The position numbers and the translations under genes are program-made. Positions 6,746 through 32,927 of a stretch of 32,927 nt of DNA are shown piece by piece. Origin of the DNA: a virus; IMG/VR virus record IMGVR_UViG_3300022745_000547, positions 1 through 32,927 of that record. The stretch is one strand, 5' to 3'. The notes under the pieces are model-generated. The model was given only the letters and a program-made list of their open reading frames with translations. It searched no databases and was not told the DNA's origin. The first letter of the stretch is position 1, and each line of letters starts with the position of its first letter.

Positions 6746-7771
6746 ATGCCGCTGATTCAGTGGCTCCTCAATCTCGACGCGCGGCCTCTTAATGAGAATG
6801 ACGAGGCCGCGCTCGAGTCGACCGTGCTGGGTCCAGCACGGTGGGGGGCTGCTGCGATCAGCGCAACGGCGGCGCTTGCTGCGTCGCTGCTCGTCACGGA
6901 CCGCGAGGACTTTCCAGCTCCGCAGCCGCCGTCGGTCGTCGACGAGGACACAGGCTGGCAGACCACGCCGCAATCGGCACAGACCTACGCGCTGTGCCTG
7001 CCGCGGTCTGTTCCGCCCTGTCGGCTCGGCGATGAGGAAATCCCCGCCGGTTCACTCTCAGGTCAACCGGATGAGGACTATTGGCAGACGGTCCCGGCAC
7101 CACAGTTCGGGCCCAACTACGTAGGACGCCCGTTTGCGGACACGGACGATCCGGCCGGCTCGCTGTTCGGCGTACCCGAGGAGTCCGAGTATCGGCCGAG
7201 CTCGCAGCAACAGTCGTGGCTGGCGCGTGCGTTCGTCGCCGATGACGACCTGCCGATCACGGCTGCCGTCACCATTATCGACGAGGACTATTGGGCGCAG
7301 CCCGCATCGTGGCAGCAGGCCCGTTCGCCGCTCGCCGCGTCGGCTGATGACGACTTGCCCGTCACGGCGTCGCTTATCCAGGACGAGGACTTCTGGTCGC
7401 AGCCCGTTCCGTGGGCCCCGCAGACGTTCCGACTTGCACTCACGATAAGCGACGACGACCTGCCGGTGCTCTCGGTTGACGAGAGCGACTGGCGCATCCC
7501 GGCGCCGTGGGCGACGGCCACGCGTGCTGCGTTCCTGCCGACCGATGACGGCGATCTGGTTCAGGTTGCGTCTGGGTCGTTTGTTGCGGATGACGACTCG
7601 TGGCAAGCGCCGCGACCGTGGCCCACACAGCCGGTTGCGATCGTCGCGTTCAATGACGGAGCGTTCGTTCCGCAGCCACCGTCGACGCCGTGGCGCATGC
7701 GACCGGACGACGGCGATGAACGCCTTGAGATCCCAGGTGTGCATTCGCTTCGTCCTCGCGGACGTCGTTGA
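6746..7771 (+). CDS. Asp/Trp-rich tandem-repeat protein
   Basis: Predicted 341 aa and unrecognised. After an N-terminal segment (residues 1-50, ending in an Ala-rich hydrophobic stretch) it is made of about eight imperfect repeats of 25-40 residues. Each pairs an acidic turn such as DDDLP with a motif like DEDYWAQP or DEDFWSQP, then a W or PW. The pattern is strongest at residues 166-245. Two Cys lie near residues 83-91. Its place among head genes suggests a long, flexible virion protein, but membrane association of the N-terminus cannot be excluded. SD-like GGTAGG precedes the ATG. Confidence 0.7.
   Translation: MPLIQWLLNLDARPLNENDEAALESTVLGPARWGAAAISATAALAASLLVTDREDFPAPQPPSVVDEDTGWQTTPQSAQTYALCLPRSVPPCRLGDEEIPAGSLSGQPDEDYWQTVPAPQFGPNYVGRPFADTDDPAGSLFGVPEESEYRPSSQQQSWLARAFVADDDLPITAAVTIIDEDYWAQPASWQQARSPLAASADDDLPVTASLIQDEDFWSQPVPWAPQTFRLALTISDDDLPVLSVDESDWRIPAPWATATRAAFLPTDDGDLVQVASGSFVADDDSWQAPRPWPTQPVAIVAFNDGAFVPQPPSTPWRMRPDDGDERLEIPGVHSLRPRGRR
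6899..7717 (+). repeat. Eight imperfect Asp/Trp protein repeats
   Basis: Coding repeats within the 341-aa gene. Units begin near DREDF, GDEEIP, DTDDP, ADDDLP, SADDDLP, SDDDLP, TDDGDL and FNDGAF. The best-preserved neighbouring units (about residues 166-235) share DDDLPxT followed by DEDxW. Confidence 0.6.
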
Positions 7772-7789: not shown

Positions 7790-7871
7790 TCGTTAGCAGT
7801 CTCCGATTCTCGCTCGCACGGACTGGCCCTCGTATCGGGGCTGCCACGCCGGCTACGGCGAGAAGCGGAAC

Positions 7872-8597
7872 ATGCTCACACGTCTCTCACGAATTCTCAT
7901 GAACGAGGCCGATAGCTCGCCGGGCAATGGTGCTCCGGCGGCTGCGGCTGCACCTGCTGCGCCGACCGCGAATACCCCGGCGCCTGCACTCGACCTCGAC
8001 ACACTCGTCGCGCGCCTGTCTGGCGTGGTCGACGAGAAGATCAAGGCGAGCCAGAACGCAACGCACGCGGCGTTGCGTAAGGCCGGTGTGTTCAAGCAGG
8101 AGGCCTCCGAGCCTGCCCCCGCGTCCACTCCGACCGCGCCCGCATCGTCGGGCCTGTCGGCCACGGACGTCGAGGCCATGCTCGAGCGCGAGCGAGTGGT
8201 CGCATCGCGCGCTGCGAAGTTCAATCTGTCCGATGTCCAGACCGGTCGCCTCAAGAAGGCACTGGCGGGCGTCGGCGCTGAATCTTTCGCCAGCGAGGCG
8301 GACGCCTTCTTGGCCGACATGGGACTCGCGAAGGCACCCACCCCTGCGGCACCTGTTGCCGCACCCACCGCGACTACGCCCACGGAAGCTCCGAAGCCTC
8401 CGGCCATGGCACCCGCTGCACCGTCAGGCCACAGCCTACCGACGCAGAACGGGATTGTTGATCTGTTTTCGCTGACTCCGCAGCAGCTGAAGGACATCGG
8501 GCCGACCGGGGTTCGTCAGGCACTGGAGCAGTTCAACACGATCGGCAGCCAGATGGCCGGCATCCCGCAGCGTCCGAAGCCGCCGTCGCAGAGGTAA
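7872..8597 (+). CDS. Capsid scaffolding protein
   Basis: Predicted 241 aa, directly before the major capsid gene. It is Ala/Pro-rich and low-complexity with predicted helices: DTLVARLSGVVDEKIKASQ, VEAMLERERVVASRAAKFN and a C-terminal VRQALEQFNTIGSQMAG. Disordered A/P linkers alternate with helices, as is usual for scaffolds that nucleate procapsids and then leave. No protease motif is visible, so it does not look like a fused protease-scaffold. ATG 7872 was chosen because GAGAAG lies upstream; the in-frame ATG at 7899 lacks a ribosome site. Confidence 0.75.
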   Translation: MLTRLSRILMNEADSSPGNGAPAAAAAPAAPTANTPAPALDLDTLVARLSGVVDEKIKASQNATHAALRKAGVFKQEASEPAPASTPTAPASSGLSATDVEAMLERERVVASRAAKFNLSDVQTGRLKKALAGVGAESFASEADAFLADMGLAKAPTPAAPVAAPTATTPTEAPKPPAMAPAAPSGHSLPTQNGIVDLFSLTPQQLKDIGPTGVRQALEQFNTIGSQMAGIPQRPKPPSQR

Positions 8598-10474: not shown

Positions 10475-10547
10475 TGCGGAGTGGAGCAGTGGTAGCTCGC
10501 GTGGCTCATAACCACGAGGTCGCAGGTTCGATCCCTGCCTCACGCAA
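10475..10547 (+). tRNA. tRNA with CAT anticodon (Met or Ile2 type)
   Basis: The D stem GAGC/GCTC encloses AGTGGTA. The anticodon stem CGTGG/CCACG encloses CTCATAA (anticodon CAT, 10507-10509). A 5-base variable loop is followed by T stem GCAGG/CCTGC with loop TTCGATC. The acceptor 5' strand TGCGGAG pairs with 3' CTC-A-CGCA only if one A (10542) is bulged. The stem lacks the three G:C pairs of initiators, so it is elongator Met, or an Ile2 tRNA read through lysidine. CCA is not encoded; the next start codon (10550) begins 2 bases after the discriminator. Confidence 0.88.
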
Positions 10548-11165: not shown

Positions 11166-11723
11166 GTGGCCGACCTCGACACGAGGGACGCGATCGAAGC
11201 CGACATGGCCGCCCACGAGCGGCGCTTTGCCGGCGAGGTTCACGCGTCCCGGAACGAGGCGCTGGCGGCTGAGGCGTTGCGCGAGCTCGACAAGCAGCGC
11301 GCGATCGAGAAGCCGGTCGCGCCCGTCGAGCAGCCACCGCCGCCCGAGTTCGTCTCGTACAAGCGCGAGTTGAACGGGCACTCGTACGTCGTCGACAAGG
11401 CGCCCGACGTCACGCCGATGTATCGGACCGCCACGGACTTCGAGCGCAACGTGCTTGCCCACGCGATGCCTCGCGTCCAACTGCTGCTGTCCAAGCAGGA
11501 CTCCGGCCCGTTCGGAACGCCATCGTGGCGGACCAAGGCGCTCGCCGCGTTCTACTTCAAGATCAAGAGCCACGAGGCGGCGACGTCGAATCGACCCGAC
11601 GAGGCTGACCTGTACGAGCGGATCTATCAGCAGGACCTATACGAACTGCTCGAGTCCAGCAATCAGCCGTTTGGTGATTGGCGCAAGGATGCGCCCGAGC
11701 CGATCCGCGTGGTGGTGCCATGA
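11166..11723 (+). CDS. Hypothetical connector-region protein
   Basis: Predicted 185 aa from GTG 11166, one base after the previous stop. The N-terminal 55 residues form a charged helix likely to be a coiled coil (EADMAAHERRFAGEV, ALAAEALRELDKQRAIEK). A Pro-rich hinge (VEQPPPPEFV) and a mixed domain with FERNVLAHAMPRVQLLLSK and a Tyr/Glu-rich helix near the end follow. No family recognised. It overlaps the next gene by ATGA. The position suggests a neck or head-completion protein. Confidence 0.6.
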   Translation: MADLDTRDAIEADMAAHERRFAGEVHASRNEALAAEALRELDKQRAIEKPVAPVEQPPPPEFVSYKRELNGHSYVVDKAPDVTPMYRTATDFERNVLAHAMPRVQLLLSKQDSGPFGTPSWRTKALAAFYFKIKSHEAATSNRPDEADLYERIYQQDLYELLESSNQPFGDWRKDAPEPIRVVVP

Positions 11724-30964: not shown

Positions 30965-31032
30965 CCATCTGCCAAAACTGCGGCCGACGCCGCTCGACGA
31001 GCAACGGCTGCCCGACAGGGTGCCGAGAATGA
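30961..31032 (+). CDS. 23-aa zinc-knuckle micropeptide
   Basis: GTG 30961 to TGA 31032, with a GTGA overlap at its start and an ATGA overlap into the amidase. The 23 residues include CQNCGRRRSTSNGCPTGC, i.e. CxxC and CxxxC separated by nine residues. This is enough for one zinc ion. The overlaps at both ends support translation. It is too short for any family match. Confidence 0.45.
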   Translation: MTICQNCGRRRSTSNGCPTGCRE

Positions 31033-31661
31033 ACGCCGCCGACACGTTCCTGTCCATCTTCGGCTTTCGTCGCGTGACAGATCCGGTTCCCCCGTTCGTC
31101 ACCGACCGCCGCAAGTACGCCGCGCAGTCGCACCATGGCTACAAGACCCGAGCGCGACCGATCGCCAAGGTGACCGGCGCGTGCCTGCACCAAACCGCCT
31201 GCGTCCTCGGCGAGCGACCCGAGCGATACGACGGCATCGGCGCGCACCTGGCGATCACGCGCGCGGGGCAGGTGATCTGGCTGCACTCGTTCGATCGGCT
31301 GGTCGTCCACGGGAACGGCTGGAACAACGGGACCATCGGCATCGAGATCGACGGCATCTATGCTGGCGTAGAGGGCGACCCGCGCACGGTCTGGCCCGCC
31401 GGGACGCAGCCGCAGCGACTCACCGACGAGACCGTCAAGGCGGCGTTGATGACGTTGGAGTGGATCCGGACGGCGGTACCCAGCGTGCGCGTGGTCGTGG
31501 CGCACCGGCAGAGTTCGGCGAGCAGGAGAGCGGACCCGGGCGAGGCGATCTGGAAGCGCATCGCGCTTGTCAGCGGGATGGAGATGGCGCCGGATACCGT
31601 GCTTGGCGATGGGCTGCCGATACCGCGCGAGTGGTGGCCTGGGAGCGACCACAGGTACTGA
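31029..31661 (+). CDS. Endolysin: N-acetylmuramoyl-L-alanine amidase
   Basis: Predicted 210 aa from ATG 31029 (ATGA overlap; GTG 31020 in frame is a less likely start). It belongs to the Amidase_2/PGRP fold, which cuts the bond between MurNAc and L-Ala in peptidoglycan. Likely zinc ligands are H54 (CLHQTA), H159 (VAHRQ) and D169 (ADPG, where many relatives have Cys). GWNNGTIGIEIDG (97-109) is the usual core strand. There is no signal peptide, so release depends on the holin. No separate cell-wall binding domain is evident. It is the last + strand gene of the late run. Confidence 0.85.
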   Translation: MNAADTFLSIFGFRRVTDPVPPFVTDRRKYAAQSHHGYKTRARPIAKVTGACLHQTACVLGERPERYDGIGAHLAITRAGQVIWLHSFDRLVVHGNGWNNGTIGIEIDGIYAGVEGDPRTVWPAGTQPQRLTDETVKAALMTLEWIRTAVPSVRVVVAHRQSSASRRADPGEAIWKRIALVSGMEMAPDTVLGDGLPIPREWWPGSDHRY

Positions 31662-31670
31662 CCGTGCGTG

Positions 31671-31690
31671 AGCCGGCGGACTGACCGGCT
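31671..31690. terminator. Hairpin between convergent operons
   Basis: AGCCGG-CGGACTGA-CCGGCT: a perfect 6-bp stem with an 8-base loop, 9 bases after the amidase stop and 22 bases from the end of the minus-strand operon. There is no U-tract on either strand, so it is at best a weak or factor-dependent end. Position, between convergent genes, is the main support. Confidence 0.35.
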
Positions 31691-31712
31691 GGGCGCGGGG
31701 TGGTGGCGTGGC

Positions 31713-32081
31713 CTACTTAATCGCCGCCTCGACACTCTGCCGCACGAGCTCGCCCACGGCGACACCGCGCTCCTCGGCAGCAGCCTGCCAGCGCTCGCGC
31801 GTCTCGGGCTGCACGAGGACCACGATGCGCTCGGTGGCGGCCTGACCGGCGGGCAGGTGGGGGCGCCCCGGCCTGCGCCATGCGATCCGGTCGCCCACCT
31901 CGGCGTCGTCGTCGATCTCGGCCGTCGTCCACATCAGGTGCGTCAGGGCGTCTCCGCGCTTGTCGCCGAGCTGGCGCCGGACCTCGACCACGAGCGCGGC
32001 CTCGGCTGCGTCCTCGGTGCGGTGGCGCGACACGACGCGCCCGTAGCGCCCGCCCTCGCGGATATTCAGGACGGCCCACAT
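31713..32081 (-). CDS. C-terminal ribbon-helix-helix protein
   Basis: Predicted 122 aa. ATG 32081 shares a TAATG with the stop of the gene before it, so the pair is coupled. The last 40 residues are ERIVVLVQPETRERWQAAAE followed by a second helix (VAVGELVRQSVEAAI): a strand plus two helices, as in Arc/CopG/MetJ (RHH) DNA-binding dimers. The N-terminal 80 residues are a separate mixed domain starting MWAVLNIREGGRYGRVV with WTTAEIDDDAEVGDRIAW. It is the likely autorepressor or antitoxin of the operon. An upstream in-frame start at 32243 is rejected as shadow reading. Confidence 0.68.
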   Translation of the reverse strand: MWAVLNIREGGRYGRVVSRHRTEDAAEAALVVEVRRQLGDKRGDALTHLMWTTAEIDDDAEVGDRIAWRRPGRPHLPAGQAATERIVVLVQPETRERWQAAAEERGVAVGELVRQSVEAAIK

Positions 32082-32431
32082 TACTCGGCCTCCGCGATCT
32101 CGGCGATGGCGGCCACAGCGCGGGCGCTCACGAGGCGGTAGCAGGTGAGCTGCTTGCCGCGCTCGTCCTCGTCCTCGTAGCGCACGACGTCCACGCCCTC
32201 GGCCGCGAGGCGGGCCAGGTCCGCGGCGGTATCGCCGGGCCACGACTGCGAGTCGCGATCGACCTCGTGGCTACGGTCCTCGACCGTGAGGCCGTCCAGG
32301 GCGATCTCGACGATGAGCACGCGACCGTTGCGCCAATCCGCATAGGACTCGGCGGCAGAGCAGGAGTCCGTGAGGCACGCGCCGATATGGGCAATCCAGT
32401 CGGTACGGGCCGTGCCGTGGTAGAGCGTCAT
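32081..32431 (-). CDS. ADP-ribosyltransferase-like protein
   Basis: Predicted 116 aa from ATG 32431. It opens LYHGTARTDWIAHIGACLTD with AAESYA near residue 30: a His in 'YHGT', then the 'LTD..AA.xYA' pattern, then strand VLIVEIALDGL, as in small H-Y-E type ADP-ribosyltransferase folds. The last conserved acid is uncertain (perhaps in the DEDERGKQLTCYRL segment). If active it would transfer ADP-ribose from NAD to a host target. The in-frame start at 32446 lies within the -10 region, so 32431 is preferred, which makes the mRNA leaderless. Partner: the RHH gene immediately downstream. Confidence 0.5.
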   Translation of the reverse strand: MTLYHGTARTDWIAHIGACLTDSCSAAESYADWRNGRVLIVEIALDGLTVEDRSHEVDRDSQSWPGDTAADLARLAAEGVDVVRYEDEDERGKQLTCYRLVSARAVAAIAEIAEAE

Positions 32432-32754
32432 GTGATTATTATGCACATGGCTATTGTCCCCGTCAAGGGATAATCATGCACATGATAAATGTGTGCCGCG
32501 ACGGGGAGTTGCAGGGACGAGATCGACACCGCCTCGCACCCTGCGGCGGCTAGCGATACGGCGGCCACGTCGTCCTCGCTGCTACTAACGTTGCTACTAG
32601 TTTCCGCTAAATTAGTAGCAGCCCTGACGTCGGGAGACACGCGGGAGACGAGAAAATAAATAGCAGCGATCACAAACACTTGCAACACAATATAGGTAAC
32701 GAGCCGTTCCGCGCCACGCGCTATGTGCAACGAATCGTTACACATTGGCAACAA
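32428..32754 (-). CDS. Doubtful 108-aa membrane ORF
   Basis: An open frame of 108 aa (ATG 32754; ATG 32745 also possible) with one hydrophobic segment (VTYIVLQVFVIAAIYFLVS, about residues 19-37). Against it: its last 20 residues are read through the promoter and operators of the ART gene, its start lies on a 21-bp palindrome, and it overlaps two other repeat structures. No Shine-Dalgarno was seen. It could be a real small membrane gene of an immunity region, but is more likely chance. Confidence 0.25.
   Translation of the reverse strand: MLPMCNDSLHIARGAERLVTYIVLQVFVIAAIYFLVSRVSPDVRAATNLAETSSNVSSSEDDVAAVSLAAAGCEAVSISSLQLPVAAHIYHVHDYPLTGTIAMCIIIT
32438..32466 (-). promoter_or_regulatory. Sigma70-type promoter of the ART-RHH operon
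   Basis: On the minus strand: -35 TTGACG (32466-32461), 17-base spacer, -10 CATAAT (32443-32438). Transcription should begin about 7 bases after, at the A of ATG 32431, giving a leaderless mRNA. Near-consensus in a GC-rich sequence, and in the right place. Confidence 0.6.
32441..32484. promoter_or_regulatory. Two identical operator-like 9-mers on either side of the -35
   Basis: ATGCACATG occurs at 32441-32449, overlapping the -10, and at 32476-32484, upstream of the -35. The second lies in ATCATGCACATGAT, a palindrome with a 2-base centre. The start-to-start distance is 35 bp. Arrangement fits autorepression by the RHH protein. Confidence 0.5.
32578..32622. repeat. 11-bp inverted repeat with a third partial copy
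   Basis: GCTGCTACTAA (32578-32588) faces its exact reverse complement TTAGTAGCAGC (32612-32622). A third copy of the core, TGCTACTA, lies between (32592-32599). Possibly a repressor or recombinase binding region. Nothing in it looks like a gene. Confidence 0.5.
32724..32744. promoter_or_regulatory. 21-bp near-perfect palindrome, operator-like
   Basis: TGTGCAACGA-A-TCGTTACACA (32724-32744). Every position pairs with its mirror except one pair (C/A) and the central base. The length fits a dimeric HTH repressor operator. Confidence 0.45.
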
Positions 32755-32760
32755 GCGCCA

Positions 32761-32927
32761 CGTCTGCCGCGTTCATTCGTCGTCGACGGACGGGTGCGCG
32801 CGGTCCATCGCGGCACCAGCGGCACGACGAAATCCGGCAAGGTGCGCGCGGTCCCGCTCTTTGACTCTGTACTAGCCGTCATCAAGTCGATGAAGCTAGC
32901 GCGCGGAACTTCCGCGCTACTGTGGCC
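32761..32927 (+). pseudogene. Partial tyrosine recombinase-like fragment
   Basis: The frame reads on to the window end. The stretch FVVDGRVRAVHRGTSG, then TTKSGKVRAVPLFDSVLAVI, then a helix, matches the beta-hairpin/lysine region of phage integrases (usual form 'tKsGK.R.vPL'). The upstream part with the catalytic Arg box ('GLRW.D') is absent in all three frames. So this is a 5'-deleted remnant, or a fused fragment; the catalytic His, Arg and Tyr would lie beyond the window. The frame has no stop back to 32611, but the residues before about 32761 do not look like an integrase. Confidence 0.35.

Follow-up and report, generated by a model that had tools for sequence, protein, structure and literature searches.

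The window, that is, the whole stretch of 32,927 bases that was analysed, is a virus record carrying a terminase (PHROG match, E 3e-11), a DNA-repair-type exonuclease (family match, E 4e-94) and, encoded at 31020-31661, a lysin of the Amidase_2 family (E 2e-10). Most of the remaining proteins searched in the record have no family match. A tRNA-Met gene (anticodon CAT) is found at 10475-10546 on the plus strand, surrounded by late genes, with 89% identity to the tRNA-Met of Sinorhizobium phage phiLM21, a likeness that gives a hint of an alphaproteobacterial host.

Two small genes lie beyond the amidase gene on the minus strand. Gene 1 (P0001, 32081..32431, 116 residues), an open reading frame with a coding signature, encodes a candidate effector that is ADP-ribosyltransferase (ART)-like by motif. 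Gene 2 (P0002, 31713..32081, 122 residues) encodes a protein with an N-terminal part, a GRP arm and a likely C-terminal ribbon-helix-helix (RHH) domain, and ends 51 bp from the amidase stop codon. The stop codon of gene 1 and the start codon of gene 2 share one nucleotide within a TAATG (32079..32083), which makes translational coupling of the two genes possible. In addition, a GGAGG within gene 1 (32089..32093, minus strand), 7 nt ahead of the ATG of gene 2, provides a Shine-Dalgarno sequence for the latter. A preceding sequence-only reading had described such a TAATG-linked pair running opposite to the late genes, and we indeed find both open reading frames in place, with the 1-nt overlap and both on the minus strand. 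A codon-usage score trained on the long genes of the phage itself gives 0.42 bits per codon for gene 1 and 0.25 for gene 2, against 0.20 and 0.11 for the best alternative frames, and the structural genes of the phage range from 0.24 to 0.61. Both are likely real genes, since the scores favour exactly their frames. A 108-residue frame (32754-32428, minus strand), whose stop overlaps the ATG of gene 1, was weighed as a possible leader gene but discarded, its family matches being only noise.

Promoter and operator-like repeats

A promoter scan revealed a -35 element TTGACG (32461..32466, minus strand) and a -10 element CATAAT (32438..32443, minus strand) separated by 17 nt. This 10/12 sigma70-like match, which the sequence-only reading had pointed out, is the only site of that quality on either strand of 31400-32927, where shuffles predict 0.3. 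Two small overlapping genes sit behind one promoter match, the layout asked of a type II toxin-antitoxin operon. The -10 element ends 6 nt from the ATG of gene 1 (32431), and no Shine-Dalgarno sequence is seen ahead of this ATG. From this spacing, a leaderless gene 1 transcript is a fair reading. Transcription had been proposed to start on the ATG itself; judged by the spacing, the transcript most likely begins at the ATG or one or two bases from it.

Two copies of a 24-nt direct repeat lie over the promoter on the minus strand. Copy B, CATGTGCATGATTATCCCTTGACG (32461..32484), spans the -35 element, and copy A, CATGTGCATAATAATCACATGACG (32426..32449), spans the -10 element and the start codon. 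The two copies are identical at 20 of 24 positions with a spacing of 35 bp, and copy A includes the dyad CATGTG-N9-CACATG. The identical repeats noticed earlier over the -10 and upstream of the -35 proved to be the core of this longer repeat, an exact 9-mer at 32441-32449 and 32476-32484, again 35 bp apart. By itself the exact 9-mer repeat is only moderately surprising, as such a repeat arises in 10 out of 1,000 shuffled versions of the 80-nt region and in 41 of 1,000 for 260 nt. A 24-nt repeat as good within 60 bp was found in none of 1,000 dinucleotide-preserving shuffles. Among 822 80-nt tiles (step 40) across the window none equals it, the A/B pair itself straddling tile borders and hence being uncounted there. 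Both the position and the duplication of the repeats fit the needs of an autorepressor, and we regard them as putative operators. They sit at the promoter, where autoregulation of the type II toxin-antitoxin kind would need them.

The two proteins

An AF2 model of gene 2 revealed a C-terminal strand-helix-helix arrangement (strand 82-90, helices 92-105 and 109-121), with a pLDDT of about 72-81 for residues 91-120 and poor values outside the C-terminus. One useful distant relative came from tblastn searches with gene 2 (with an E limit of 10 for plasmids and 1 for phages), the Ruegeria protein P0004, which aligns over GRPxLP...ERIVxL with 34% identity over 62 residues and in turn hits the Pfam RHH_5 model (E 5e-4, below the cut-off bits). 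Matches of gene 2 to the NikA-like and RHH_10 models are sub-threshold (E 0.04-0.08), and the RHH_1 model run on the record alone gave no match to gene 2. A pattern scan of viral contigs, a method that reaches close relatives only, returned nothing for gene 2. Foldseek and VIA-align searches with the whole model yielded unrelated low-score folds, with no RHH protein among the matches listed, and say little, given the poor quality of the model beyond the C-terminal region. Taken from the model and the distant relative, about residues 83-121 likely form an RHH domain, in support of the RHH identity claimed for this protein. Ahead of the strand, the GRP at residues 72-74 looks like an arm for the minor groove, which would fit the AT-rich centres of the repeats. 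The extra N-terminal domain that had been noted is also there, as a part of about 70 residues with no match. In a related phage (L018), an RHH-like sequence, KPVCLRLQADLEAFVRDIAASQGITVSEWIRLLI, was observed in a minus-strand frame at 7809-8309, downstream of the amidase relative.

The two motifs read earlier in the gene 1 protein are both present, as Y4-H5-G6-T7 followed by A26-A-E-S-Y30-A31. YHGT followed by AESYA is the order known in the H-Y-[EDQ] ARTs, a clade so named in a survey of viral NAD+/ADP-ribose systems (PMC9503650), and H5 and Y30 match, by motif alone, the strand 1 His and the strand 2 Tyr of this clade. By eye, a candidate for the third residue (E, D or Q in strand 5), Q94, falls at the position where E, D or N occur in viral ARTs, and the profile alignment does not reach reliably as far as this residue. 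Scanning viral contigs twice at the DNA level for these motifs returned many YHGT proteins; some of them match ART-PolyVal in Pfam, for instance L099 at E 1e-22 and L101 at 6e-5, and other small ones (L066, L059) are, like gene 1, unrecognised by Pfam. The YHGT motif is therefore a fair pointer to ART identity, and on its sequence gene 1 is possibly, even likely, an ART.

It might instead be that YHGT and AESYA in gene 1 are coincidental or belong to another small fold; the pair would then be some other accessory operon under its own control, such as a gene for superinfection exclusion or an anti-repressor coupled to a repressor of the Arc/Mnt type. Gene 1 indeed stands without profile, homolog or fold support. 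No family match was found in Pfam, PHROGs, NCBIfam or PADLOC, and the PF18760 (ART-PolyVal) and PF13151 (DUF3990) models run on the record alone gave no match to gene 1. Against profiles of the viral YHGT ARTs its score lies within the range of shuffles that keep the motifs, being reached by 20 of 400 in profile-profile comparison and by 159 of 2,000 as an HMM score; its C-terminal part alone gave no alignment with these profiles, and no significant similarity to viral ARTs was found outside the two motifs. The ART identity suggested earlier did not find confirmation, and a structure model of gene 1, made with no alignment, has a pLDDT of 45, unusable for a fold match. Against coincidence, the chance that the YHGT...A..YA pair occurs in this order close to the N-terminus in any of the 216 listed open reading frames of the window is about 2e-4, a figure to be read with the fact that the motif pair also served for selection. 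P0001 also keeps, by eye, the usual ART order of the motif, an 'LT' strand, A..YA, a hydrophobic strand and a G-x-D turn. Weighing both sides, we consider a non-ART gene 1 unlikely.

Beyond the motif, the best pairwise match of gene 1 is L066 (4 of 300 shuffles), which is unremarkable among dozens of candidates. L066, for which Pfam gives no match, is a stand-alone YHGT protein of 98 residues (7222-7518, minus strand of a viral contig). Searches for gene 1 by tblastn in phages and plasmids, to E 10, gave chance matches only; these include a match beside an AbiEii-type gene, rejected as the matched stretch contains stops, and matches to head-tail adaptors and a VgrG, dismissed as chance. No match in phages was obtained with a typed consensus of phage YHGT proteins, and pattern scans of viral and genome contigs with gene 1, which reach close relatives only, returned nothing.

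Neighbourhood and origin of the operon

Few related phages were found. Three of them (L002-L004) have the packaging and structural end in common with the window, and two others (L005 and L006) the end bearing the exonuclease and the amidase, which are 67% and 49% identical, respectively, to their counterparts. The amidase is also common to L014, L015 and L018. At the place of the pair, L005 and L006 carry a tyrosine integrase on the same strand, and L014 and L018 carry unrelated plus-strand genes. The pair is absent at the matching place in related phages, and whole-record searches of six of them for the pair found nothing. Nor were relatives of the pair found in phages, plasmids, or viral or genome contigs, where the pattern scans reach close relatives only. 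The operon has a GC content of 70-74% and a GC3 of 0.90-0.92, compared with 58-68% and 0.73-0.87 for the listed phage genes. Because of this distinct composition, the absence in relatives, the own promoter and the opposite orientation, the pair fits accessory phage cargo. The phage looks like one of temperate type, since its relatives have an integrase at the place of the pair.

Just upstream of the operon, at 32568-32632 (plus strand), lie three TGCTACTA words, two direct and one inverted, with no copies elsewhere in the window. These words make an 11-bp perfect dyad, GCTGCTACTAA/TTAGTAGCAGC, with a DNA fold z of -2.7. In L005 a different dyad, with GGAAACTAG and GCTAAAT in common, was observed at about 11315-11355, between the amidase and the end of the integrase. 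The dyad at 32568-32632 is possibly a phage attachment site. Further on, at 32770-32925 (plus strand), an open frame with VDGRVRAVHRGTSGTTKSGKVRAVPL resembles the middle of a tyrosine integrase; it is cut by the window end and its upstream part is missing, and it has no Pfam match and weak matches to two annotated recombinases (E 6-7).

The distinct composition of the operon, together with the att-like dyad and the integrase-like fragment just past it (32568-32925), would also be expected if the pair were bacterial DNA flanking an integrated prophage. However, the operon lies between the amidase and the dyad, which would place it inside the prophage if the dyad is the attachment site, and the end of gene 2 lies so close to the amidase stop that we find a bacterial origin very improbable.

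The neighbourhood in L005 bears on another possibility, that gene 1 is an early ART-like modifier of a host protein in host takeover, in the manner of T4 Alt and Mod, and gene 2 a plain repressor rather than an antitoxin. In L005 the minus strand starts directly after the amidase, with the integrase and further small minus-strand genes. This is probably a non-late region, of which the operon may form the first unit. The scarcity of viral toxin-antitoxin systems with ART toxins in the survey of viral ARTs (PMC9503650) also favours a role in takeover. On the other hand, a plain repressor would need neither the close coupling through TAATG nor the sizeable extra N-terminal region of gene 2, and host takeover seems to us a rather improbable function of the pair.

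A possible effector-regulator pair

Our best explanation, to which we give a little less than an even chance, is an autorepressed effector with an RHH repressor/antitoxin-like partner, carried as phage cargo. The pair would be expressed independently of the late genes from the opposite strand, with gene 1 made from a leaderless start, as the promoter spacing suggests. The gene 1 product would be the effector and, judged by its motifs, most probably an enzyme of ART fold, small and divergent, that uses NAD+. As gene 2 has its own GGAGG and overlaps gene 1, the regulator would be made whenever the effector is made. The RHH protein, as a dimer or a dimer pair, is predicted to occupy both 24-nt operators and to shut the overlapping promoter, and its N-terminal part may bind and restrain gene 1 in a manner like that of type II toxin-antitoxin systems, in reversed gene order. 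The action might take place in lysogeny or early infection, e.g. against superinfecting phages or a host target. Of the autoregulated toxin-antitoxin-like or defence module proposed earlier, the two-gene operon, its own promoter and the operator-like repeats hold, whereas the toxin-antitoxin or defence function is an interpretation.

In type II toxin-antitoxin operons the antitoxin gene usually comes first. The pair shares overlapping small genes, an RHH protein and promoter repeats with the type II systems that have RHH antitoxins (RelBE, ParDE, CcdAB and VapBC), but here the putative toxin gene is first and the candidate toxin is ART-like, not RelE, ParE, CcdB or PIN. Moreover, the RHH domain is C-terminal and the extra part N-terminal, whereas in most antitoxins the DNA-binding domain is N-terminal (PMC4803016). 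Both the gene order and the antitoxin domain order are thus reversed with respect to the usual ones, which counts against the effector-antitoxin reading. RES-Xre and DarTG also combine a toxin of the ART superfamily (here ART by motif only) with an adjoining antitoxin, although their antitoxins are an Xre helix-turn-helix protein or a macrodomain and their toxins belong to other ART families. Arc and Mnt of P22 are RHH repressors acting on their own or a neighbouring phage promoter, as is predicted here, but with another partner gene. Compared with the ART-PolyVal (PF18760) or H-Y-[EDQ] viral ARTs, gene 1 has the N-terminal YHGT and the A..YA about 20 residues on in the same order, but is short and stand-alone, has no significant profile match and no recognisable similarity in its C-terminal half, and offers Q94 as possible third residue where theirs is commonly E, D or N. 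In the available text of the survey, the viral ART toxins have ARG, Dmd or helix-turn-helix proteins as their named partners, and neither 'RHH' nor 'ribbon-helix' appears as a word in that text (PMC9503650).

On present evidence the pair is not assignable to the toxin-antitoxin or ART families. Because no relative of gene 1 was found, no conserved pairing with gene 2 is demonstrable. More tentatively, and with considerable doubt on our side, the pair could represent a new phage-borne toxin-antitoxin or anti-superinfection family, with a stand-alone ART of about 116 residues made from a leaderless transcript, an antitoxin combining an N-terminal inhibitor with a C-terminal RHH domain and GRP arm, and two 24-nt operators. 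The pair is ordinary in its layout and new in its proteins. Should gene 1 prove to be something other than an ART, the pair would still be a good illustration of an orphan phage cargo operon that apparently represses its own expression. If it is a true ART-RHH pair, it would bring to the viral ART systems a further kind of partner and a compact arrangement of promoter and operators.
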